From Peptoniphilus vaginalis (GTDB lineage Bacteria; Bacillota; Clostridia; Tissierellales; Peptoniphilaceae): a stretch of 64,000 bases of DNA. Each line of letters opens with the position of its first letter. Position 1 is the stretch's first letter. The DNA lies in NCBI RefSeq assembly GCF_900176605.1, contig NZ_FXLP01000005.1:310001-374000 (forward strand), in the 5' to 3' direction. Below, in pieces: positions 16,684 through 58,467 of the stretch. The notes below the pieces were generated by a model, which was not told where the DNA came from, ran no database searches, and saw only the letters and a list, made by a program, of their open reading frames with translations. Position numbers and translations under genes: made by a program.

Positions 16684-17865
16684 TCAATTCTTTCTAACTT
16701 CTAAATCACGATGTTTTAAAAATGTCAACCATTGCAGTATCACATCTAAAGCCAGTTTGGCATTTCCTAAATTGCAATGATTTCCCGCATTTTCTTTTTC
16801 AGTAAAAAGGCGAAATGTGAGAGAGTTCGCATTGGTAAGTGCGTTGATTTCTTTGCCGATCATTCGGTAATCAACGAGGTGGTCTTGGTTGGCACCAAGA
16901 ATCAATACATCTTGTTCAATCATGGAGGCCACATCCATAATCTGATATTTACTCACTTTCTTCAGATAATCATAAATGCTGTCAGCTCCATAGGCGTACA
17001 TTCCATGATTGACACCCCATTGAAATAATGGGTCATTCTTACGTATCAATTTCATCATGCAAAGAATAGGGCTGAGAACGATGCTGAGATTATGTTTCAA
17101 CATAAACCTAACAATACCGCCTACATTTTTTGGTATTTGGTCGAGAACCACGTCTAGAAAGTCCGGTAAAACAGACCAAGATACAACCCTTGTAATTCTT
17201 TTGTCAAATGCAGCAGCACGCAGGGCCAGCATAGCTCCCAAAGAAACACCAATAATAATGACGTTATTCAAGTGAAAGAAATCTAATATTTCTTTGACTG
17301 GATGTTCCCAAGCATATGTAAAGTGTTTCCCTTGAACACGAATAACGTTGCCTTGTCCAGGACCTTCAAATAGATATACATCATACCCTTGTTCAGAAAG
17401 ATATAACATCGGCAAAAACATTTCCTCAAAGCATGAATCGTTACCACCGTGTAAAAGAATGGTGCCCTTACATTGTTTTTGAGCTTTTGCAACCATGATT
17501 GGCAGCATAACATCTTCATATGGAACTTGAATTTTCTGGACACGTCCCTCATCGAAATAAGAATGGTAATACTCATAAAACAGTTCCGTGGCTTTTATAT
17601 AGTATTCCTTGTTGCCAGGATTTACATCAAAAAATTCGCTCATTCGGTAATATGAAATTGCCTGAGGGATTCTGTTTTGAGAGAGTGCATGATCCCCAAG
17701 GTAAATCATTTCCTTCTTCCAGCTTGTGCTGTCTGTAATCTTTTTGGCAGACTGCATCACATCGTTTAAATTCCCGCCATTCCAAAGAATGACGCGGTTA
17801 AGCTGAAAGTTAAAATTAGGATCAGGATTTAGGTGATACATACCTTGTTTAAATTTCAACTCCAT
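16684..17865 (-). CDS. Alpha/beta hydrolase family protein
   Basis: 393 residues. The N-terminal ~120 residues form a helical cap-like region; the hydrolase core follows with an HGGND oxyanion-type motif (LLHGGNDSC) and the nucleophile elbow GVSLGA (Gly-x-Ser-x-Gly). A late Asp in LGANQDHLVD and a His in GNHCNLG complete a plausible triad. FrsA/dienelactone-type cytosolic esterase; substrate unknown. AAGGAGG precedes the start. Forms a minus-strand pair with the HXXEE membrane gene and is divergent from a TetR gene, which probably controls both. Codon use is less AT-rich than in the phage genes, suggesting transfer. Confidence 0.8.
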   Translation of the reverse strand: MELKFKQGMYHLNPDPNFNFQLNRVILWNGGNLNDVMQSAKKITDSTSWKKEMIYLGDHALSQNRIPQAISYYRMSEFFDVNPGNKEYYIKATELFYEYYHSYFDEGRVQKIQVPYEDVMLPIMVAKAQKQCKGTILLHGGNDSCFEEMFLPMLYLSEQGYDVYLFEGPGQGNVIRVQGKHFTYAWEHPVKEILDFFHLNNVIIIGVSLGAMLALRAAAFDKRITRVVSWSVLPDFLDVVLDQIPKNVGGIVRFMLKHNLSIVLSPILCMMKLIRKNDPLFQWGVNHGMYAYGADSIYDYLKKVSKYQIMDVASMIEQDVLILGANQDHLVDYRMIGKEINALTNANSLTFRLFTEKENAGNHCNLGNAKLALDVILQWLTFLKHRDLEVRKN

Positions 17866-17903
17866 GCAAAAGACCTCCTTAAAAATTTGCTATTTGTGTG
17901 TAA

Positions 17904-18425
17904 TTAAATTTCCCACTTTTTGATAAAAGTTTCAAAAGATTTCATACATCTATGCAAAATAGCCACCATTAAGAGCATCAAAATAGCGCCTACTACACAA
18001 CTGATCCATAATTGAGCTGTGGTAAAAGAAAGGAATTTATTTGAAACCCAAATGATATAAAAGCATAACGGAAGGAACGGGATTGCGGTGACCACTCCGG
18101 GTACATAGCCATTAAATTGCAACGCCAACATACAATGCACAATAAGGTGAAAGGTAAATCCAAAAAATAATCCCAGCCACAAAAAGTACCAATCAAAGAT
18201 ACAAGCAGAGAGGGATAAAGCTGAAATAATGAAAAATTCAATCAATACACCAATGGAAAATGACGGTGTGCTTCCCAAATCGGCAAATGGAATCTTCTTC
18301 ATTTTTGTTGTTTGTATTTTTCTTTTATATTTCTGTTTCCATGCCTCCACAAAAATAATCTCCTCGAAGTCATGCAGCATAAAAATAACAGGGAACAGCC
18401 AAACAATCGTATTTATTGTATTCAT
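17904..18425 (-). CDS. HXXEE domain-containing membrane protein
   Basis: 173 residues with the defining motif: an early helix ending in MLHDFEEIIFVEAW (His-x-x-Glu-Glu). About four membrane helices follow (for example near residues 55-75, 80-100, 105-125 and 130-152). Conserved acidic and His residues in such proteins suggest a metal-bound membrane enzyme, but the biochemical role is unknown. It lies 38 bases upstream of the hydrolase on the same strand and probably forms an operon with it. Confidence 0.82.
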   Translation of the reverse strand: MNTINTIVWLFPVIFMLHDFEEIIFVEAWKQKYKRKIQTTKMKKIPFADLGSTPSFSIGVLIEFFIISALSLSACIFDWYFLWLGLFFGFTFHLIVHCMLALQFNGYVPGVVTAIPFLPLCFYIIWVSNKFLSFTTAQLWISCVVGAILMLLMVAILHRCMKSFETFIKKWEI

Positions 18426-18554
18426 AAAATTGAGCCTCCTTTATCTGTCTCACTTGTGTCACTTTCTAATTTATAGTATACTCAATAAGACATGATTGTC
18501 AATATAAGCGGTTCAAGTGCTACAATCCCGAAAAAGTGTGACAGGAGGAACAAA
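18426..18554. promoter_or_regulatory. Divergent promoter region between HXXEE gene and TetR regulator
   Basis: 129-base gap serving both directions. It has a GTATACT -10-like hexamer around 18476 and a short near-palindromic TCACTTGTGTCACTT stretch near 18449 that could be a regulator site. The TetR-type gene next to it most likely binds here; no operator was proven. Confidence 0.4.
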
Positions 18555-19112
18555 ATGAGGTTGGTAAAAAAGGAAAAGAATCCCATCGCTGAGCAATCCC
18601 GTCAATGGTTTATGCAGTCCTTGTTGGATCTTATGAGCCAAAAAGACTACGCTCGTATTACCGTAACAGAAATCGCCGAACATGCGCTTTTATCAAGAAG
18701 AACTTTTTATAGGATCTTTGATTCGAAGGAGCAGGTATTACAGCAATGCTTCTTAGAAAGATGTGAGGACTACATTACTTATTTTCAAAAAGACAGGCAC
18801 TATACACTGGAGCAGATTGTGGAAGTGTTTTTTACCTTTTGGGAGAAACAAATCGACTTTTTGCGTCTTTTGCAACAGAATCATCTATTCTATTATCTGC
18901 TGGAAGAATTCAATCAGGCCTTACCTGTGATTCATGATACCGTTCGTGGAAATCAAAATTTGTACGACAGCATCTTTGAAAGGAAAGCTGCACTGCTCGT
19001 CAGTGCCGGTGCACTTTGGAATCTTCTTTCCGAATGGATTCAAATGGAAAATCGTCCGTCTCCAAAAGAAATATCTAAAATGATGCTACAAATAATTGCA
19101 TCTAATTCTTGA
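18555..19112 (+). CDS. TetR/AcrR-family transcriptional regulator
   Basis: 185 residues. ATG at 18555 preferred because AGGAGG lies at 18543-18548; the frame opens earlier without a ribosome site. Helix-turn-helix in the first 55 residues (YARITVTEIAEHALLSRRTFYRIF). The C-terminal helical domain would sense a ligand. Divergent from the HXXEE/hydrolase pair and likely their repressor. Confidence 0.87.
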   Translation: MRLVKKEKNPIAEQSRQWFMQSLLDLMSQKDYARITVTEIAEHALLSRRTFYRIFDSKEQVLQQCFLERCEDYITYFQKDRHYTLEQIVEVFFTFWEKQIDFLRLLQQNHLFYYLLEEFNQALPVIHDTVRGNQNLYDSIFERKAALLVSAGALWNLLSEWIQMENRPSPKEISKMMLQIIASNS

Positions 19113-20739: not shown

Positions 20740-22302
20740 ATGAAAAAGATAACAAAAATAGAAGCTAATCAAAAAGAAGAATCTACATTAAGAGTTGCTG
20801 CTTATGCCAGAGTATCGACTGATGAAGACGCTCAGCTTGTAAGCCTTAAGACACAAAAAGCGCACTACGAAAAGGTTATATCTGAAAACAAGTCATATAC
20901 TTTTGCAGGTCTATACTTTGACGAAGGCATTACTGGAACAAAGAAAGAATGCAGAGACGGTCTTTTAAAAATGCTAAAAAATTGTGAGAATGGGAAGATA
21001 GATTTTATCCTAACCAAATCAATATCTAGGCTTGCAAGAAATACGACAGACTGTTTGGAAATCGTAAGAAGACTCCTTGACCTAAATATTGGTATCTATT
21101 TTGAAAAAGAAAACATTGATACCAGGACAATGGAAAGCGAGTTGATGTTATCCATACTTTCATCCCTTGCAGAAAGTGAATCCAGGTCTATTTCAGAAAA
21201 TAACAAATGGTCCATAAAGAAAAGATTTCAGAATGGAACTTTTATCATATCAAGCCCACCCTATGGCTATGAGAATATAGACGGAAAGATGGTAGTGAAT
21301 GAAGAAGAAGGAAAAATAATAAAAGAAATATTTGAAGAGTATCTTTCAGGTAAGGGAACGCACAAAATAGCAGAAGGCTTAAATAAGAGAAAGATCAAAG
21401 GACAAAGAGGAGCAAGCTGGCATGGGTCGACTATAAACGGCATCTTAAAAAATGAAAAATATACAGGGGATGTCATCTACCAAAAGACCTATACAGACGA
21501 TAGTTATAAGAGACACAAGAATAAGGGAGAAGAAGACCAGTATAAGATAATAGATAACCATGAAGCTATAGTAAGTAGAGAGGACTTTGAAAAAGTACAA
21601 GAATTAATAAGACTTAGAGCCATAGCAAAAGGAAATGGAGAAAACACTAAAAGATATCAAAATAGATATGGTCTATCTGGAAAAATCAAGTGTGGAGAAT
21701 GTGGCTCAAGCTTTAAAAGAAGACATCACTATAATGGCAAAGATAAATATATAGCTTGGACTTGCAGTGAGCACCTAAAAGATATAAATAAGTGCTCCAT
21801 GAAGTTTATTAAGGACAAGGACATAAAACTAGCTTTTGTAACTTTAGTCAATAAGCTAATCTTTGGAAAAGATAATATCCTTACACCACTCTTAGAATCT
21901 ATAAAGAGAATAGACAGCAAGGAAGAAGTAGAGAAGATAGAAAAAATAGAAGAAAGCTTAGAAAAAATAAAGGAAAGAAAAGAGGTCCTAAACAAACTGA
22001 TAACATCAGGAGTTTTAGATGCAAGTATTTACACAAAAGAAAGCAGTGAGATTTCAAGCGAAGAAAGAAACTTACTTAAGGAAAAGGAGAGAAGTCAAAA
22101 AGCCATCCTTGGAAACGATGAAGAAATAAGAGAGCTTGAAAAACTAATAGGAATCTTAGGAAAAAGTGAAATGATAGATCACTTTGAAGGGGACTTGTTT
22201 GAAGAAATCATTGACCAAATTCAAGTTGTCAATAGAGAGACCTTTGAGTTTCATTTAAAGTGTGGACTTGTATTAAGAGAGGAAGTAAAAAATAATGTCT
22301 AG
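20740..22302 (+). CDS. Large serine recombinase (site-specific integrase)
   Basis: 520 residues. Resolvase catalytic domain about 15-155 with the nucleophile Ser in [11 protein letters not shown], plus YFDEGITGT and SISRLARNT. A recombinase domain follows (KYTGDVIYQKT). A zinc ribbon near residue 312 has CGECGSSF and a later Cys-x-x-His. The last ~120 residues are a coiled coil. Catalyses integration/excision between att sites, here probably for the prophage or the adjacent element. The only one of the three recombinase genes that looks fully intact. Its 3' end overlaps the next gene by 8 bases. Confidence 0.93.
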   Translation: MKKITKIEANQKEESTLRVAAYARVSTDEDAQLVSLKTQKAHYEKVISENKSYTFAGLYFDEGITGTKKECRDGLLKMLKNCENGKIDFILTKSISRLARNTTDCLEIVRRLLDLNIGIYFEKENIDTRTMESELMLSILSSLAESESRSISENNKWSIKKRFQNGTFIISSPPYGYENIDGKMVVNEEEGKIIKEIFEEYLSGKGTHKIAEGLNKRKIKGQRGASWHGSTINGILKNEKYTGDVIYQKTYTDDSYKRHKNKGEEDQYKIIDNHEAIVSREDFEKVQELIRLRAIAKGNGENTKRYQNRYGLSGKIKCGECGSSFKRRHHYNGKDKYIAWTCSEHLKDINKCSMKFIKDKDIKLAFVTLVNKLIFGKDNILTPLLESIKRIDSKEEVEKIEKIEESLEKIKERKEVLNKLITSGVLDASIYTKESSEISSEERNLLKEKERSQKAILGNDEEIRELEKLIGILGKSEMIDHFEGDLFEEIIDQIQVVNRETFEFHLKCGLVLREEVKNNV

Positions 22303-22711
22303 GTTATGCTATGGCTATACCATAAGAGACGGAAGATTAGAAATTCAAGAAAAAGAAGCGGAGAATATAAGAAAAATCTTTAAAAACTATCTTGCTGGCA
22401 ATGCCCTTATAAAGTCGGCAGACCTTGCAGGCTTAAAGAAAAACAGCTCAAGTGTAAAAAGAATCCTCACCAATAAAAATTATTTAGGAAATGATATCTA
22501 TCCCAAGATAATAGATAGAGGGAGCTTTGATAAGGCAGGTCAAATGTTAAAGGAAAGGGCAGTGGCCATGGGACGAGTTTGGGAAAAGGAAGAAGAGATT
22601 ATTAGAGCTCCTTGTAAGTTTAGATATAAAGAGGAAGTGGCTTTACCTATAGATCCCCTTGAACGAGCAAGCCACCAGTACAATTTAATCGAGGTGATAG
22701 ATGATGAATAG
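22295..22711 (+). CDS. Short recombinase-family protein lacking the catalytic domain
   Basis: 138 residues. It matches only the recombinase domain (EAENIRKIFKNYLAGN..., VKRILTNKNYLGNDIY) and has no resolvase domain and no catalytic Ser. Small proteins like this are common as the middle gene of three-recombinase modules, so it may be an accessory DNA-binding factor and not a decayed gene. Start and stop overlap both neighbours, indicating tight translational coupling. Confidence 0.75.
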   Translation: MSRLCYGYTIRDGRLEIQEKEAENIRKIFKNYLAGNALIKSADLAGLKKNSSSVKRILTNKNYLGNDIYPKIIDRGSFDKAGQMLKERAVAMGRVWEKEEEIIRAPCKFRYKEEVALPIDPLERASHQYNLIEVIDDE

Positions 22712-24267
22712 TAAGGTCATAGTCATACCAGCTAAAAAGAAAAAAGGAAACTCCATCAAGGAATCAGAAAAGAAGAAGTTAAGAGTAGCCGCCTATGCAA
22801 GGGTATCGACAGACAGCGATGAACAAGCAACTTTCTTATGACACTCAAGTAGACCACTACACAAATTATATTAAGAAAAATCCAGACTGGGAATTTGCAG
22901 GAGTATTTTCTGATGAGGGTGTTAGTGGAACTTATACCAAGAAAAGAGATGGCTTCAACAAAATGATTGAAGAAGCCATGGAAGGAAATATCGACTACAT
23001 CATCACAAAGTCCATATCGAGGTTTGCTAGAAACACACTAGACTGCTTAAAGTATATTAGAAAACTTAAAGAAAACAACATCCCAGTCTATTTTGAAAAA
23101 GAAAACATCAACACCATGGATGCCAAGGGAGAAGTCCTCCTTACCATTATGGCATCTTTTGCACAACAGGAAAGTCAGTCCTTGTCACAAAATGTGAAGT
23201 TAGGCTTTCAATATAGATTTCAACAAGGCCAAGTCCAAGTAAATCATAATAGGTTCTTAGGCTACACAAAAGACGAAGAGGGAAAACTTGTCATCGTTAC
23301 TGAAGAAGCAAAAATTATAAAAAGGATCTACAGAGAATACTTGGAAGGAGCAAGCCTACGAGATATAAAAGAAGGACTTGAAAAAGATAAGATAATAAAT
23401 GGAGCAGGAAATAAGAAATGGCATGTATCAAACCTCAATCAAATTTTAACTAATGAAAAATATATGGGAGATGCACTCTTACAAAAAACATATACGGTAG
23501 ATTTTCTAAATAAGAAAAGAGTAAAGAATGATGGAATTGCACCTCAATATTATGTAGAAAACAGCCACGAAGCCATTATACCTAAAGAAATCTTCATGCG
23601 AGTCGGAGAAGAAATGTACAGACGAGTTAATATGGTAAGTGGCAAGGGGAAAAGAAGAATTTATTCCAGCAAATATGCCCTTTCAAGTATTGTCTATTGC
23701 TCTAAATGTGGGGATATTTACAGAAGAATAGCATGGAATAACAGGGGGAAAAAGTACACCGTTTGGAGGTGTTGTACAAGAGTAACCCATGGACCAGATG
23801 CCTGCCATGCTAGAACCATTAAAGAAGAAGACCTACAAGAGGCAGTTGTAGAAGCCATCAATCAACTTATATCTGAAAGCAGTGAATTAAAAGAAATAAT
23901 AAAAGAGAACATTAAAAATGCCATCACAGGTGATGGAAGTAGACAGATAGAAACAATAGACAAAGAAATGCTGAATGTTCAAGAAGAGCTTTTAAAAGTA
24001 GCTAATGCCAAGAAAGACTACACTGACCTTGCAGACAGGGTGGAAGAATTAAGGAATGAAAAAGAAAAGATACTCCTAACTATGGCAGAAGAGAAAAATG
24101 AACAAAGCAGGCTAATGGAATTAGAAGAATTTTTAAATAATCAAGAATTAGAAATAGAAAGCTATGATGAAGAATTGGTAAGGAGACTGATAGAGAAGAT
24201 AGTGGTTTATGAAGAAAAACTTAAAGTAATATTTAAATCAGGATTGGAATTCGAGATTAGCAAATAG
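22701..24267 (+). pseudogene. Second large serine recombinase, frameshifted after the catalytic Ser
   Basis: Translation begins at ATG 22701/22704 (GAGGTGAT upstream): [20 protein letters not shown] carries the catalytic Ser, then runs into TGA. One surplus T in the TTT at 22832-22834 explains this; removing it restores [21 protein letters not shown] and an open frame to 24267. The main downstream frame (from about 22795) has the rest of the resolvase domain, the recombinase domain, a zinc ribbon ([10 protein letters not shown]) and a C-terminal coiled coil, but no nucleophile. Either a true null mutation or a homopolymer sequencing error. Confidence 0.82.
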
Positions 24268-24268
24268 A

Positions 24269-24293
24269 CAGCTCTAGATATAGGGCTGTTTTT
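24269..24293 (+). terminator. Terminator after the recombinase module
   Basis: CAGCTCTA / TAGGGCTG stem (24269-24276 with 24281-24288) followed by five T. It starts two bases after the recombinase stop. Confidence 0.75.
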
Positions 24294-24306
24294 CTTTGCC
24301 TACAAA

Positions 24307-24315
24307 TGGTATACT
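24307..24315 (+). promoter_or_regulatory. Extended -10 promoter of the TOPRIM gene
   Basis: TG-G-TATACT, 18 bases before the GTG start at 24333. Same extended -10 style as the phage morons. Confidence 0.6.
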
Positions 24316-24332
24316 AATAATGGTGATTAAAA

Positions 24333-25865
24333 GTGAAAATATATAATAATTTAGAATCAGATTTTGGTTATGAAAAAATTGAAAAAGATAAATTGTTACA
24401 ATTATTACCAAATCTTAAAAACTCTTGGATAAAAATCAAGATTATAAGTAATTATAGTAGTCAATGTATACTGAATGAATTATTTTCAACTGAGTTTTCA
24501 TTCAAAGTGAAAAATGTTGATGCAGTATCAGATGAAGATTTTGTATATATTTATGGTTATAAAGAAGAAGAACGCTTGATACTTGATTTAGGCACGTTGT
24601 CTCAGTCTGAATGTAAAGAAGGTAAATCATTTCATTTAATAATAACAAAGGATATTTATTGGTCAGAATTATATATTTCAAAATTTATTCCAGATTTCGA
24701 AGTGAGAGGGCTACTTCAAGACATAGTTGACTCTGAAGAGAACATAGTTGTTACAGAAGGAAAGACCGATTGGAAACATCTAAAAGCTGCCTTAAAAAGA
24801 TTTCAAAGGGCTGGCATATACAATGATTTGGACTTCAAATTTTTAGAATATGAAACAGGTTTAGAAGAACAAAATATAAATTTATTAGATAAAAAGTTAC
24901 AGGGTAATTCAACTCTTAAAACTATTTGTATTTACAATGCATTATTTAAAAACAATAAGAAAAAAATATTTATTTTTGATAGTGACACAAAGAACATATT
25001 AGATGAGTTTTCAGACGAAAAAGGATATAAATATTTAGGTAATAACGTTTATGCCATAGTTATTCCAGATCCATCAAATAAATCGTCAGTTAATGGTTTC
25101 GAGATAGAGAATTACTATGATGATAAAGATATAAAAGCTAAAGATAAGCAAGGTAGAAGGTTATTTTTGAGTAAAGAATTCAAGTTTGATGAAGATGTTC
25201 ATAAATATTATTCTAGAAAAATGAACGCAGATAGACCTTATTTGATAATAGATTCGGATGTTTATGAAAATTTAACAGATGAAGCTATAAAAAGCAAAGA
25301 AGAACTATCAAATTTAATTAATTCAAAAAACAAAAATATTAGAAAGGTTAAAACTTTATCGAAAAATGATTTTGCAGAAAATGTTCTTAAAGAAGTTGAT
25401 GGTTTTGATAAATTGAATATAGTTGAATTTAAAAAAATATTTGACATTATTGAACAAATATTGATTGAAGATTTTTATAGTGAAGATAAAATACCAAATA
25501 ATCAATATGTTATAAGTGATAATTCTGTTATACTAGAATTCAATGAACATAAAGAGCTCTATATTAACGCAAAAGTGGATTATAAAAAATTAACTAGTAA
25601 TAATAAAACTATATGTTCTGAAATTTATAAAAATGAAGATGAAACAATAGAGATAAATATAGGGAACTTTAAATTTGGATTTTATACAATAGCAAAAATA
25701 AATTTTTGTCAAGAAATTAATTTGTTTATAATAAATAAATTAAATGACGCTAGCAATAGGATTTATGTTAATTTTTTTAATGAGAAAGAGGAGTATGTGT
25801 GTACAATTGAAATCTTAAAAGGTGAATCATTCGATATACTGGGAAGAAGGGTGTTAGAAAATTAA
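24333..25865 (+). CDS. TOPRIM-domain protein of unknown function (possible defence nuclease)
   Basis: 510 residues, GTG start behind GGTGAT. The middle carries a TOPRIM-like core: NIVVTEGKTDWKHL near residue 138 (the invariant Glu) and KKIFIFDSDT near residue 211 (the DxD pair), followed by a possible third acidic element in GFEIENYY near residue 255. This is the layout of OLD/DUF4435-type metal-dependent nucleases. No ATPase motif is present, and no partner ATPase lies next to it. The first ~130 residues and the last ~150 are unassigned. Very AT-rich, single-gene unit with own promoter, immediately beside the recombinases, a typical spot for phage-carried defence genes. The function as defence is an inference. 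Confidence 0.65.
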   Translation: MKIYNNLESDFGYEKIEKDKLLQLLPNLKNSWIKIKIISNYSSQCILNELFSTEFSFKVKNVDAVSDEDFVYIYGYKEEERLILDLGTLSQSECKEGKSFHLIITKDIYWSELYISKFIPDFEVRGLLQDIVDSEENIVVTEGKTDWKHLKAALKRFQRAGIYNDLDFKFLEYETGLEEQNINLLDKKLQGNSTLKTICIYNALFKNNKKKIFIFDSDTKNILDEFSDEKGYKYLGNNVYAIVIPDPSNKSSVNGFEIENYYDDKDIKAKDKQGRRLFLSKEFKFDEDVHKYYSRKMNADRPYLIIDSDVYENLTDEAIKSKEELSNLINSKNKNIRKVKTLSKNDFAENVLKEVDGFDKLNIVEFKKIFDIIEQILIEDFYSEDKIPNNQYVISDNSVILEFNEHKELYINAKVDYKKLTSNNKTICSEIYKNEDETIEINIGNFKFGFYTIAKINFCQEINLFIINKLNDASNRIYVNFFNEKEEYVCTIEILKGESFDILGRRVLEN

Positions 25866-25939
25866 TATATTCCCACATACGAGGCTTTTGAGAAATATGA
25901 AATTTTATCCATACTGACCACTCAAGCCATGTGGAGACG

Positions 25940-26056
25940 GTAGCGTTGATACAAATGATGTAAATTTAGATATCTTGTATTTTAAGCAGTTTTATAAGCA
26001 TTTTGTCTTTGAAAAAGATGAAGAAGGATAGGTCAAAAAGACTCAAAAAAACTACA
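25940..26056 (+). repeat. Left copy of a ~117-bp diverged direct repeat
   Basis: By eye about 85-88% identical to 40577-40693. Both copies preserve a fragment of the same reading frame (SVDTNDVNLDI...FYKHFVFEKDEEG), each broken by a stop (TAG at 26029 here). It is the remnant of an unidentified gene. The 14.6 kb between the copies holds the mobile-element mosaic. The gap from 25866 to 26274 otherwise contains only a terminator and no gene. Confidence 0.75.
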
Positions 26057-26130
26057 TGGATGTAAGAGTAGTTTTACAACTGGTATGAGGAAACACAAAA
26101 AATATAATTAACTCATTTTGTACTTTCTAC

Positions 26131-26158
26131 AAGAGTAGCTTAAAAGGCTGCTCTTTTT
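26131..26158 (+). terminator. Terminator-like hairpin
   Basis: AAGAGTAGC / GCTGCTCTT arms with loop TTAAAAG, running into a T run at 26154-26158. Confidence 0.65.
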
Positions 26159-26274
26159 CATTGTATATAAGAAATCGGTGCATTCTTTTTCAAAAATATA
26201 AAACAATCATAGCCTAACTTCACATCTTCGCTTTTATAACATATAATAAAAGCGTAAACGAGAGGTGGGCGACT

Positions 26275-26862
26275 ATAAATACACTTAAAGAATACATACA
26301 AGAAAATTTAATAATCACCAACAAAGAAGCAGAAGAGCTTGGATATAGTAGGCATAATCTATCAGAATTAACAAAGAGCGGAAAATTAGAAAGATTAAGA
26401 CCGGGACTATATCAATTAAAAGGAAAAGTAATAGATGATTTTGTTTTAATATCATCCAATAGTAATCGAATTATATTTTCACATCAAACAGCCCTATACC
26501 TCCACGACCTATCCGACAGAACTCCAAATGTATTTTATATATCTGTACCCCAAGGCTATAATGCAAGTCATATCAAAAATAGATATAAAGACCTCCAAGT
26601 TCACTATGTAAAAAAAGACTTGTACGAGATTGGCAAGACAGAAATAAAATCACCACAAGGCAACCTTATCCCAGTTTATGATATTGAAAGAACAATTTGC
26701 GATATCATAATCGACAGAGAAAAAATAGATAAGCAGATTTTCACAGAAGCCATAAAAAGATACTTTAAATCACAAAATAAGAATCTAAGACGACTAATAA
26801 AATACAGTAGACTATTTAAAATAGAATCTGAAATTAGAAAATATATGGAGGTATTATCGTGA
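26275..26862 (+). CDS. abiEi: AbiEi-type antitoxin (type IV TA), start codon ATA
   Basis: 195 residues if read from 26275. N-terminal winged HTH (TNKEAEELGYSRHNLSELTK), then RLRPGLYQLKG and the AbiEi core (FSHQTALYLHDLSDRTPNVFYISVPQGYN...), and YDIERTICDII near the end. AbiEi represses its promoter and neutralises the AbiEii nucleotidyltransferase. A good GAGAGGTGGG site is followed at the right spacing by ATA, not ATG. The first ATG is at 26620, deep in the protein and without a ribosome site. Translation may therefore be weak or lost. Overlaps the toxin start by 4 bases (GTGA), the normal coupling; the toxin itself is broken. Confidence 0.8.
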   Translation: MNTLKEYIQENLIITNKEAEELGYSRHNLSELTKSGKLERLRPGLYQLKGKVIDDFVLISSNSNRIIFSHQTALYLHDLSDRTPNVFYISVPQGYNASHIKNRYKDLQVHYVKKDLYEIGKTEIKSPQGNLIPVYDIERTICDIIIDREKIDKQIFTEAIKRYFKSQNKNLRRLIKYSRLFKIESEIRKYMEVLS

Positions 26863-27942: not shown

Positions 27943-28380
27943 ATGAAACTTGACCTAACAACAGGAGATGCAATAACACCAAGAGAAATAGAATACACAT
28001 ATCCATGTATCTTTAGCACAGAAGCTATAAAAATAATGGCATATCCATTAGAAACAATATTAGCAGAAAAATACGAAACCATAATCAGAAGAAATATAAC
28101 AACAACACGAATGAGAGACTTCTACGACCTATATATCCTCTACAAACTAAAAAAACTATGAAATTTTAAAAAAAAAGCAATACAAAGAACCTCAAACAGA
28201 AGAGGAAGTCAGGAGATAATGCAAGACTATAAGGAAATAATCGAGGACATAAAAGAAGATTCATACCTAAGATCCTTGTGGGAGGTATATCTTAGTGAGA
28301 ATAAGTATATTGGAGATTTGAGCTTTGATAAGGTAGTTGATGTGGTAACAATTTTATCAAATAGGATAAACGAGATATAA
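27943..28380 (+). pseudogene. abiEii: AbiEii toxin, 3' fragment with poly-A frameshifts
   Basis: Begins at KLDLTTGDAITPREIEY, the conserved AbiEii segment, then YPLETILAEKYETII and TTTRMRDFYDLYIL. The frame ends at TGA 28159 beside a run of seven A; a run of nine A follows shortly after. Changing frame in these runs recovers AIQRTSNRRGSQEIMQDYKEII and a natural end ILSNRINEI at 28380. With the first fragment, about 150 central residues are missing, so no toxin can be made. Confidence 0.78.
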
Positions 28381-57744: not shown

Positions 57745-58010
57745 AAAAAAGCTCCCGTCCATAAAGGACGAAAGCTTGAGCTTCGTGTTACCACCTTTTT
57801 TTATTATTTTATCACTAAAATAACCTCATAGAGTACCAACATACTCCGAACGCTATAACAGGCGTACCTGTCGCAGCCTAAACTTTTGTCTCGGTGCGAT
57901 AACTCCAAGGCCATGTTCCAAAGTATCCATTTTGATTTCTTTCACCAAGCGAAATCTCTCTGTAAAAACTTTTACAATGTACTCTCCTCTTCAAAGTCTA
58001 TGTATTGAAT
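57745..58010 (-). promoter_or_regulatory. T-box riboswitch of metY
   Basis: On the minus strand the T-box core GGTGGTAACACGAAGCT (complement of 57779-57795) precedes a terminator with arms at 57751-57760 and 57766-57775 followed by a T run. Upstream stem I has the usual GGTGAAAG segment, and a candidate specifier ATG in GGAACATGGCC near 57912. Binds uncharged tRNA-Met to favour the antiterminator. Specifier choice inferred from the gene and from local context. Confidence 0.88.
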
Positions 58011-58202: not shown

Positions 58203-58227
58203 GATATGCAATATAAAAAATATTAGA

Positions 58228-58467
58228 AAAAACGAGTAGACTCATAAAGACTTATAGAGAGTAAGCGTTTGGTGAAAGCTTATAGTTGGAGTGATTTCGA
58301 AAATCCTTTTTCTTATGCAGGGCAGAAATAATAGTAAGTCTTGTCGCAGTGGTAGGCGTTATCATTACCCAGCATTGATTGATGCTTGAGCGCTTATTTT
58401 TTTATAAGAATAAAGGTGGTACCGCGGAACTTTCGTCCTTTGTCATAACTGACAGAGGACTTTTTTT
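58228..58467 (+). promoter_or_regulatory. T-box riboswitch of the ilv operon
   Basis: Contains GGTGAAAG in stem I, the T-box core AAAGGTGGTACCGCG (58412-58426), and a terminator GTCCTTTGTCA / TGACAGAGGAC (58435-58460) plus seven T. The downstream genes make branched-chain amino acids; a candidate specifier ATC (Ile) is at 58303-58305, low confidence. It controls the ABC ATPase remnants and ilvBNCD together. Confidence 0.92.

Follow-up and report, generated by a model that had tools for sequence, protein, structure and literature searches.

In the 64,000-nucleotide stretch of the Peptoniphilus vaginalis genome analysed here (contig NZ_FXLP01000005.1, positions 310,001 to 374,000; hereafter the window), a gene at 24333..25865 encodes a 510-residue protein in which a TOPRIM module of the type found in retron Eco2 lies between an N-terminal beta-barrel and a C-terminal domain. 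This layout is sporadic in its spread and has no common partner gene. The reading that we favour, and hold to be moderately probable, is that of a stand-alone defence protein, probably of the abortive-infection type, whose gene is prophage cargo located at the integrase end. All features lie on the forward strand unless a strand is given.

A retron-type TOPRIM module with an active site intact by sequence

The best PADLOC profile, RT-Toprim_I-C, matches the protein with an E-value of 1.7e-27, being covered only at 321-525 of its 529 positions, and a search with six seeds, among them EGKTDWKH and ENYYDDKD, retrieved 63 related loci (L numbers below) from other genomes. Together these results indicate, at the level of sequence, that the resemblance to TOPRIM is not due to chance. 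The module covers residues 119-385 approximately (24687..25487), as delimited by profile, alignment to Ec67 (Retron-Eco2) and fold. Its first catalytic motif, E142-GKT-D146 (24756..24770), aligns with E374 and D378 of Ec67, both of which the Eco2 paper identifies as catalytic, and its DxD motif, D216-S-D218 (24978..24986), aligns with D460 and D462. E257-I-E259 (25101..25109) is probably the second metal-site motif; this stretch, which falls outside the Ec67 profile alignment, would pair with S513/E515 of Eco2, and the five relatives in alignment A1 have a serine at position 257. The conserved lysine of LSKNDF, K344 (25362..25364), is set by the profile on an Ec67 lysine that is K546 by our own count along the profile alignment, which differs from the K562 named in the Eco2 paper.

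E142-H149 and E259, the latter conserved in the 67-row alignment, owe part of their invariance to the choice of EGKTDWKH and ENYYDDKD as search seeds. Outside all seeds, D216 and D218 are each conserved in 66 of the 67 rows and K344 in 65. A profile search free of seeds found L145, which carries EGKTD without WKH and is ATPase-like by eye. Judged by its residues, the active site is intact.

A first fold model, calculated from the six rows of A1, had a pLDDT of 58.8 and a poor TOPRIM, and the fold search made with it picked up the N-terminal domain almost alone; it was replaced by a 60-row model. With the latter, the structural comparison proposed in a preliminary description of this DNA returned a TOPRIM fold, with Eco2 and PARIS AriB as the closest solved relatives. 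That description had likened the protein to OLD or DUF4435 nucleases. The TOPRIM fold and active site are borne out, and the combination of E, DxD and a second metal site that characterizes the OLD family is present, the last probably, in both sequence and predicted fold; membership of the OLD or DUF4435 groups was not borne out by Pfam, where neither profile was matched even with E as high as 1. The nearest known kin is the retron Eco2 TOPRIM. The Pfam Toprim profile itself touched 3 of the 25 modules of alignment A2 (best E 3.2e-4).

Flanking domains and gene boundaries

The N-terminal domain (residues 1-121; 24333..24695) consists of a helix and a beta-barrel whose nearest fold is that of B. 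subtilis YojF (1njh), yet at 10% identity and with no sequence-profile match. YojF is a separate 108-residue chain, whereas the barrel here is part of a 510-residue protein; none of the papers listed in a search for YojF names it. The domain was seen in none of 167 pattern stretches in viral contigs and, across 329 genomes of the phylum, in its own genome alone. The alpha/beta C-terminal domain (residues 386-510; 25488..25862) gave no phmmer match, and its best hit in a PDB profile search, a mite allergen at E 0.17, was taken as chance. Both domains may act as sensors.

The reading frame has a GTG start and its TAA stop falls within the range given. A start earlier than 24333 is precluded by a TGA in frame at 24324, and the N-terminal block YNSLxxDIR of the relatives matches residues 4-12, which supports the GTG. 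The preliminary description, which placed the feature at 24294..25865, was right about its end and about a 510-residue, AT-rich protein with VTEGKTDWKHL (residues 140-150) and FDSDT (215-219), the 2-kb row 24001-26000 having the lowest GC content (26.4%, against 27.3-42.0% in the other rows); its starting point takes in the presumed promoter. The gap between the recombinase stop and the start codon is 65 nt. Behind the recombinase, a terminator-like hairpin (24266..24291), one of two such sites in 24200-26300 where 0.2 are expected, makes it probable that the gene is transcribed alone. A promoter of its own is likely, as previously claimed: the hairpin speaks for it, and a possible extended -10 element, TGGTATACT (24307..24315), was spotted by eye but is missing from the list of the promoter scan.

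A sporadic layout

The five A1 relatives align end to end with the window protein at 31-37% identity. The barrel, TOPRIM and C-terminal domain occur together in Desulfosporosinus nitroreducens, D. hippei, Cytobacillus praedii, a Lachnospiraceae metagenome-assembled genome and Paenibacillus BK033, and again at L144, in another genome of the family of Paenibacillus BK033. The full-length layout was found in its own genome alone among 101 relatives, 249 genomes of the order and 291 of the class, the class-wide search also giving two partial matches. Counting the query genomes, it is present in 1 of 193 genomes in the family of L003, 2 of 394 in that of L005 and 1 of 397 in that of L004, with partial matches in 4, 1 and 4 further genomes, respectively; the genome sets searched overlap in part. 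Phage records gave no match at 1e-5, the annotation of the single plasmid match reads RNA-directed DNA polymerase, and the viral library yielded one match at E <= 0.001, a 125-residue uncharacterised siphovirus protein.

We met no description of this layout in the libraries searched or in the accessible portion of the open-licence PubMed Central literature; the TOPRIM family itself is already known. In the earlier proposal that this could be a single-gene anti-phage effector of undescribed type, the words 'undescribed type' apply to the layout and not to the effector, whose family is known through type I-C retrons.

The module under different controllers

Architectures were surveyed in 66 homologous proteins, the 63 from the seeded search and three viral ones, by clustering of the N-terminal parts and motifs. 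The TOPRIM is joined to an ABC ATPase in 38 proteins, to a reverse transcriptase (RT) in 8 (including L017, by its YxDD motif alone), to the barrel in 5, to sacsin-type sequence in 4 (including L009, cut short), to a NACHT-type part in 3, to a receiver in 2, to NB-ARC-TPR in 1 and to an unknown partner in 3 (L060, L061, L032); in two (L014, L030) it is alone or truncated. Pfam, applied to a single representative from each of six of these kinds, returned Response_reg, SACS with SLFN_AlbA_2, NACHT, NB-ARC with TPR, AAA_15/21, and RVT_1. A complete RT-Toprim_I-C retron protein is encoded at L007 (E 5e-173 or better). A match of L028 over 13-372 was rejected as a barrel, its N-terminal part clustering with sacsin-type proteins. 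Viral loci L068 and L069 and the partial loci L071, L072, L140-L143 and L145-L149 stayed outside the sorting.

In a tree of 65 modules (L056 and L062 dropped as incomplete, L144 outside it), the window protein and L001-L005 form one clade (100/99), placed beside Bacillota ABC fusions (95/68). On the tree, the label ABC requires seven changes, RT three and NACHT two, and barrel, sacsin, receiver and the first unknown group require one each; all ten labels together require 10 changes against a shuffled mean of 27.1. These changes argue that the module moved between very different controllers. The neighbouring ABC-fused clade might suggest a decayed, inert remnant of an ABC-TOPRIM fusion, but the frame and catalytic residues are intact and the five A1 relatives align along their whole length, so that we find this scarcely credible.

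Several of these proteins are worth recording. Direct fusion of a receiver to the TOPRIM, at L010:2217-3272 (Pfam) and L013:839-1903 (clustering), suggests a nuclease that may be controlled by phosphorelay. L011:536-5407, L016 and L028 encode sacsin-type proteins of ~1600 residues with a Schlafen AlbA_2 domain and the same TOPRIM at the end. NACHT-type proteins carry it terminally at L048, which had no PADLOC match at 1e-5, L049 and L051, and at L039 it precedes NB-ARC-TPR-SEC-C.

Comparison with known systems and proposed function

Retron-Eco2 shares the TOPRIM by sequence profile and fold, as well as the EGKTD and DxD motifs, and in both cases the effector resides within a single protein. 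Eco2, however, has an RT, in whose place the window protein has the barrel, together with an extra C-terminal domain; no RVT_1 match was found in Pfam at E up to 1, and a hidden retron was rejected for lack of an RT. In the window, Rfam at its gathering threshold, which targets described RNAs, gives only two T-boxes, and the 65 nt upstream leave little room for a retron RNA. The predicted TOPRIM fold is also near that of PARIS AriB, a DUF4435 Toprim tRNase, but AriB acts with the AriA ATPase, whereas the window gene gave no DUF4435 profile match, and no ATPase was seen among the adjoining frames scanned. Members of the OLD family (class 1 OLD, GajA and retron I-B) have the same TOPRIM active-site layout and an ABC ATPase; the window protein lacks the ABC domain and any Pfam match to the OLD-type TOPRIM.

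In published accounts, Eco2 and AriB are RNases, OLD and GajA TOPRIMs act on DNA, and the RNase M5 nuclease is also a TOPRIM. The same defence role could be served by a TOPRIM that, like GajA or OLD, nicks or cuts DNA, whether that of the phage or that of the chromosome. The 38 ABC-ATPase fusions, which have the OLD layout, and the position of the window clade beside such fusions lend this some weight; the closest relatives by fold are nonetheless RNases, and neither an ATPase domain nor an OLD-type Pfam match was found, which makes it unlikely in our judgement.

On the favoured reading, in the uninfected cell, the barrel and/or the C-terminal domain would keep the nuclease inactive or await a ligand. 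A phage product or a molecule made upon infection would bind and free the TOPRIM, which might then cut RNA, most likely tRNA or mRNA, by a two-metal mechanism, so that translation would halt and the phage could not multiply. We regard as evenly balanced the fuller proposal of one-gene immunity, in which a barrel that binds a ligand, together with a C-terminal domain, controls an Eco2-type TOPRIM RNase without ATPase, RT or RNA, and in which the same module serves widely as a plug-in effector of retrons, OLD-like ATPases, NACHT, NB-ARC and sacsin-type proteins and receivers.

In Eco2, the RT-msDNA assembly is believed to keep the TOPRIM inactive. A natural version that has no RT, no ATPase and no known RNA suggests that domains of a very different kind can control this nuclease, in a small protein where sensing and cutting could be separated. 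Across the wider fusions, one effector links retron, OLD-like, NACHT and NB-ARC proteins, and it makes an easy query with which to look for new defence candidates; if the plug-in proposal holds, many TOPRIM fusions would be unrecognised defence systems.

Neighbouring genes

No ATPase was found among the neighbouring frames scanned, the nearest being the ABC transporter genes from 30563, and no partner gene is common to the seven loci compared (window, L001-L005 and L144), on which ground a two-gene system was rejected. Together with the Pfam results, this agrees with the absence of an ATPase domain or partner noted in the preliminary description. A rhodanese-like gene is common only to L005 and L144, an 86% identical pair, and the AraC-type gene of L005 is 29% identical to that of the window over 97 residues. 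The flanks of L001-L005 contain 61 frames of at least 80 residues. PADLOC, run without a background rate on ten neighbour frames picked by eye (none from L003), gave matches in seven: PDC-M62A and B beside L001, AriA (4.8e-29) and AriB (1.4e-21) beside L002, a helicase model (1.7e-168) beside L004, and PycC (9.1e-103) and PycTM (8.2e-13) beside L005. The neighbourhood comparison suggested earlier thus places defence-type genes beside four relatives, with the frames chosen by eye.

In its left 16 kb, the window carries prophage structural genes (terminase, portal, tail, amidase), followed by a hydrolase/HXXEE/TetR cluster, serine recombinases and the TOPRIM gene, consistent with the proposed cargo position at the integrase edge. 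The recombinases (20740..24267) are large and of integrase type (Pfam; phrog_95 integrase); those at 20740-22302 and 22795-24267 have three Pfam domains each, and the frame at 22295-22711 has the Recombinase domain only. Their proximity, a resolvase-like gene (by eye) adjoining L004, and the TOPRIM of RNase M5 could point to a protein resembling RNase M5, or to an accessory of recombination, whose ordinary task would lie in maturing RNA or in integrating the element. We consider this very unlikely: no recombinase is common to the window and any relative's flank at E 1e-3, presence is patchy even within the order, and homologous modules form part of NACHT, NB-ARC and retron RT proteins.

Repeat R and the cargo slot

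The TOPRIM stop codon marks the beginning of a repeat of the genus, here called R (25861..25940), which forms the right edge of the cargo. R is about 75 bp long and has copies in L089-L097, L099-L102, L104 and others; it reads FPHT, ~45 bp, HVETV, resembling a split C-terminal motif of an RlmD-type methyltransferase gene. All 14 genomes of the genus have R-region matches, some covering only sequence right of R, and its RNA fold is unremarkable (z -1.01). Two PF05958 genes lie in the same genome, one (C1:291913) ~18 kb left of the window with its end intact, the other (C2:452542) 4.5 kb before another R. R is possibly an attachment-site remnant.

We lined up 30 distinct places including that of the window (31 rows, one place twice, some partial) and compared the cargo in twelve chosen intervals, from a recombinase end or R to the next R, with other R places such as L099-L102 outside and L088 bounded by the shared right flank instead. 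Cargo varies: Abi_2 (L090), SocA/Panacea with an unknown gene (L096), AAA_14 with DUF4143 (L092), two-component/ABC clusters and, by eye, drug-resistance-like genes (L088, L091), while the L097 interval holds only 234 bp. At L089, a 40-bp stretch like 24277-24316 (85%) stands 29 bp before R, which fits an empty version of the TOPRIM gene's slot. Several R copies can follow one another, three each in L093 and L094, a pattern that resembles successive elements accumulating at a single target.

The TOPRIM gene is the last before R at the edge of the element, comparable slots contain the SocA/Panacea and Abi_2 genes, and isolated Eco2 Toprim is toxic according to the Eco2 paper, all of which would suit a prophage toxin or addiction gene whose growth arrest stabilises the element, phage defence being a side effect or absent. 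Yet the seven loci share no antitoxin-like neighbour, so that an antitoxin would need to be internal, and relatives lie near PARIS and Pycsar models; we therefore rate this as rather improbable.

Other features of the window

To the right of the TOPRIM gene lies an AraC/GyrI-like gene flanked by a fragmentary AbiE-type pair, at 26620-26862 (by eye) and 27943-28161 (AbiEii, Pfam); a MobC-type gene and ABC transporters follow. The hydrolase, HXXEE protein and TetR regulator at 16684-19112, between the phage amidase and the recombinases, fall in a stretch of raised GC content (rows of 0.37-0.42) and are possibly cargo too, on the far side of the integrases. The two T-box leaders are divergent and stand back to back, at 57761-58003 on the reverse strand and 58215-58443 on the forward strand.
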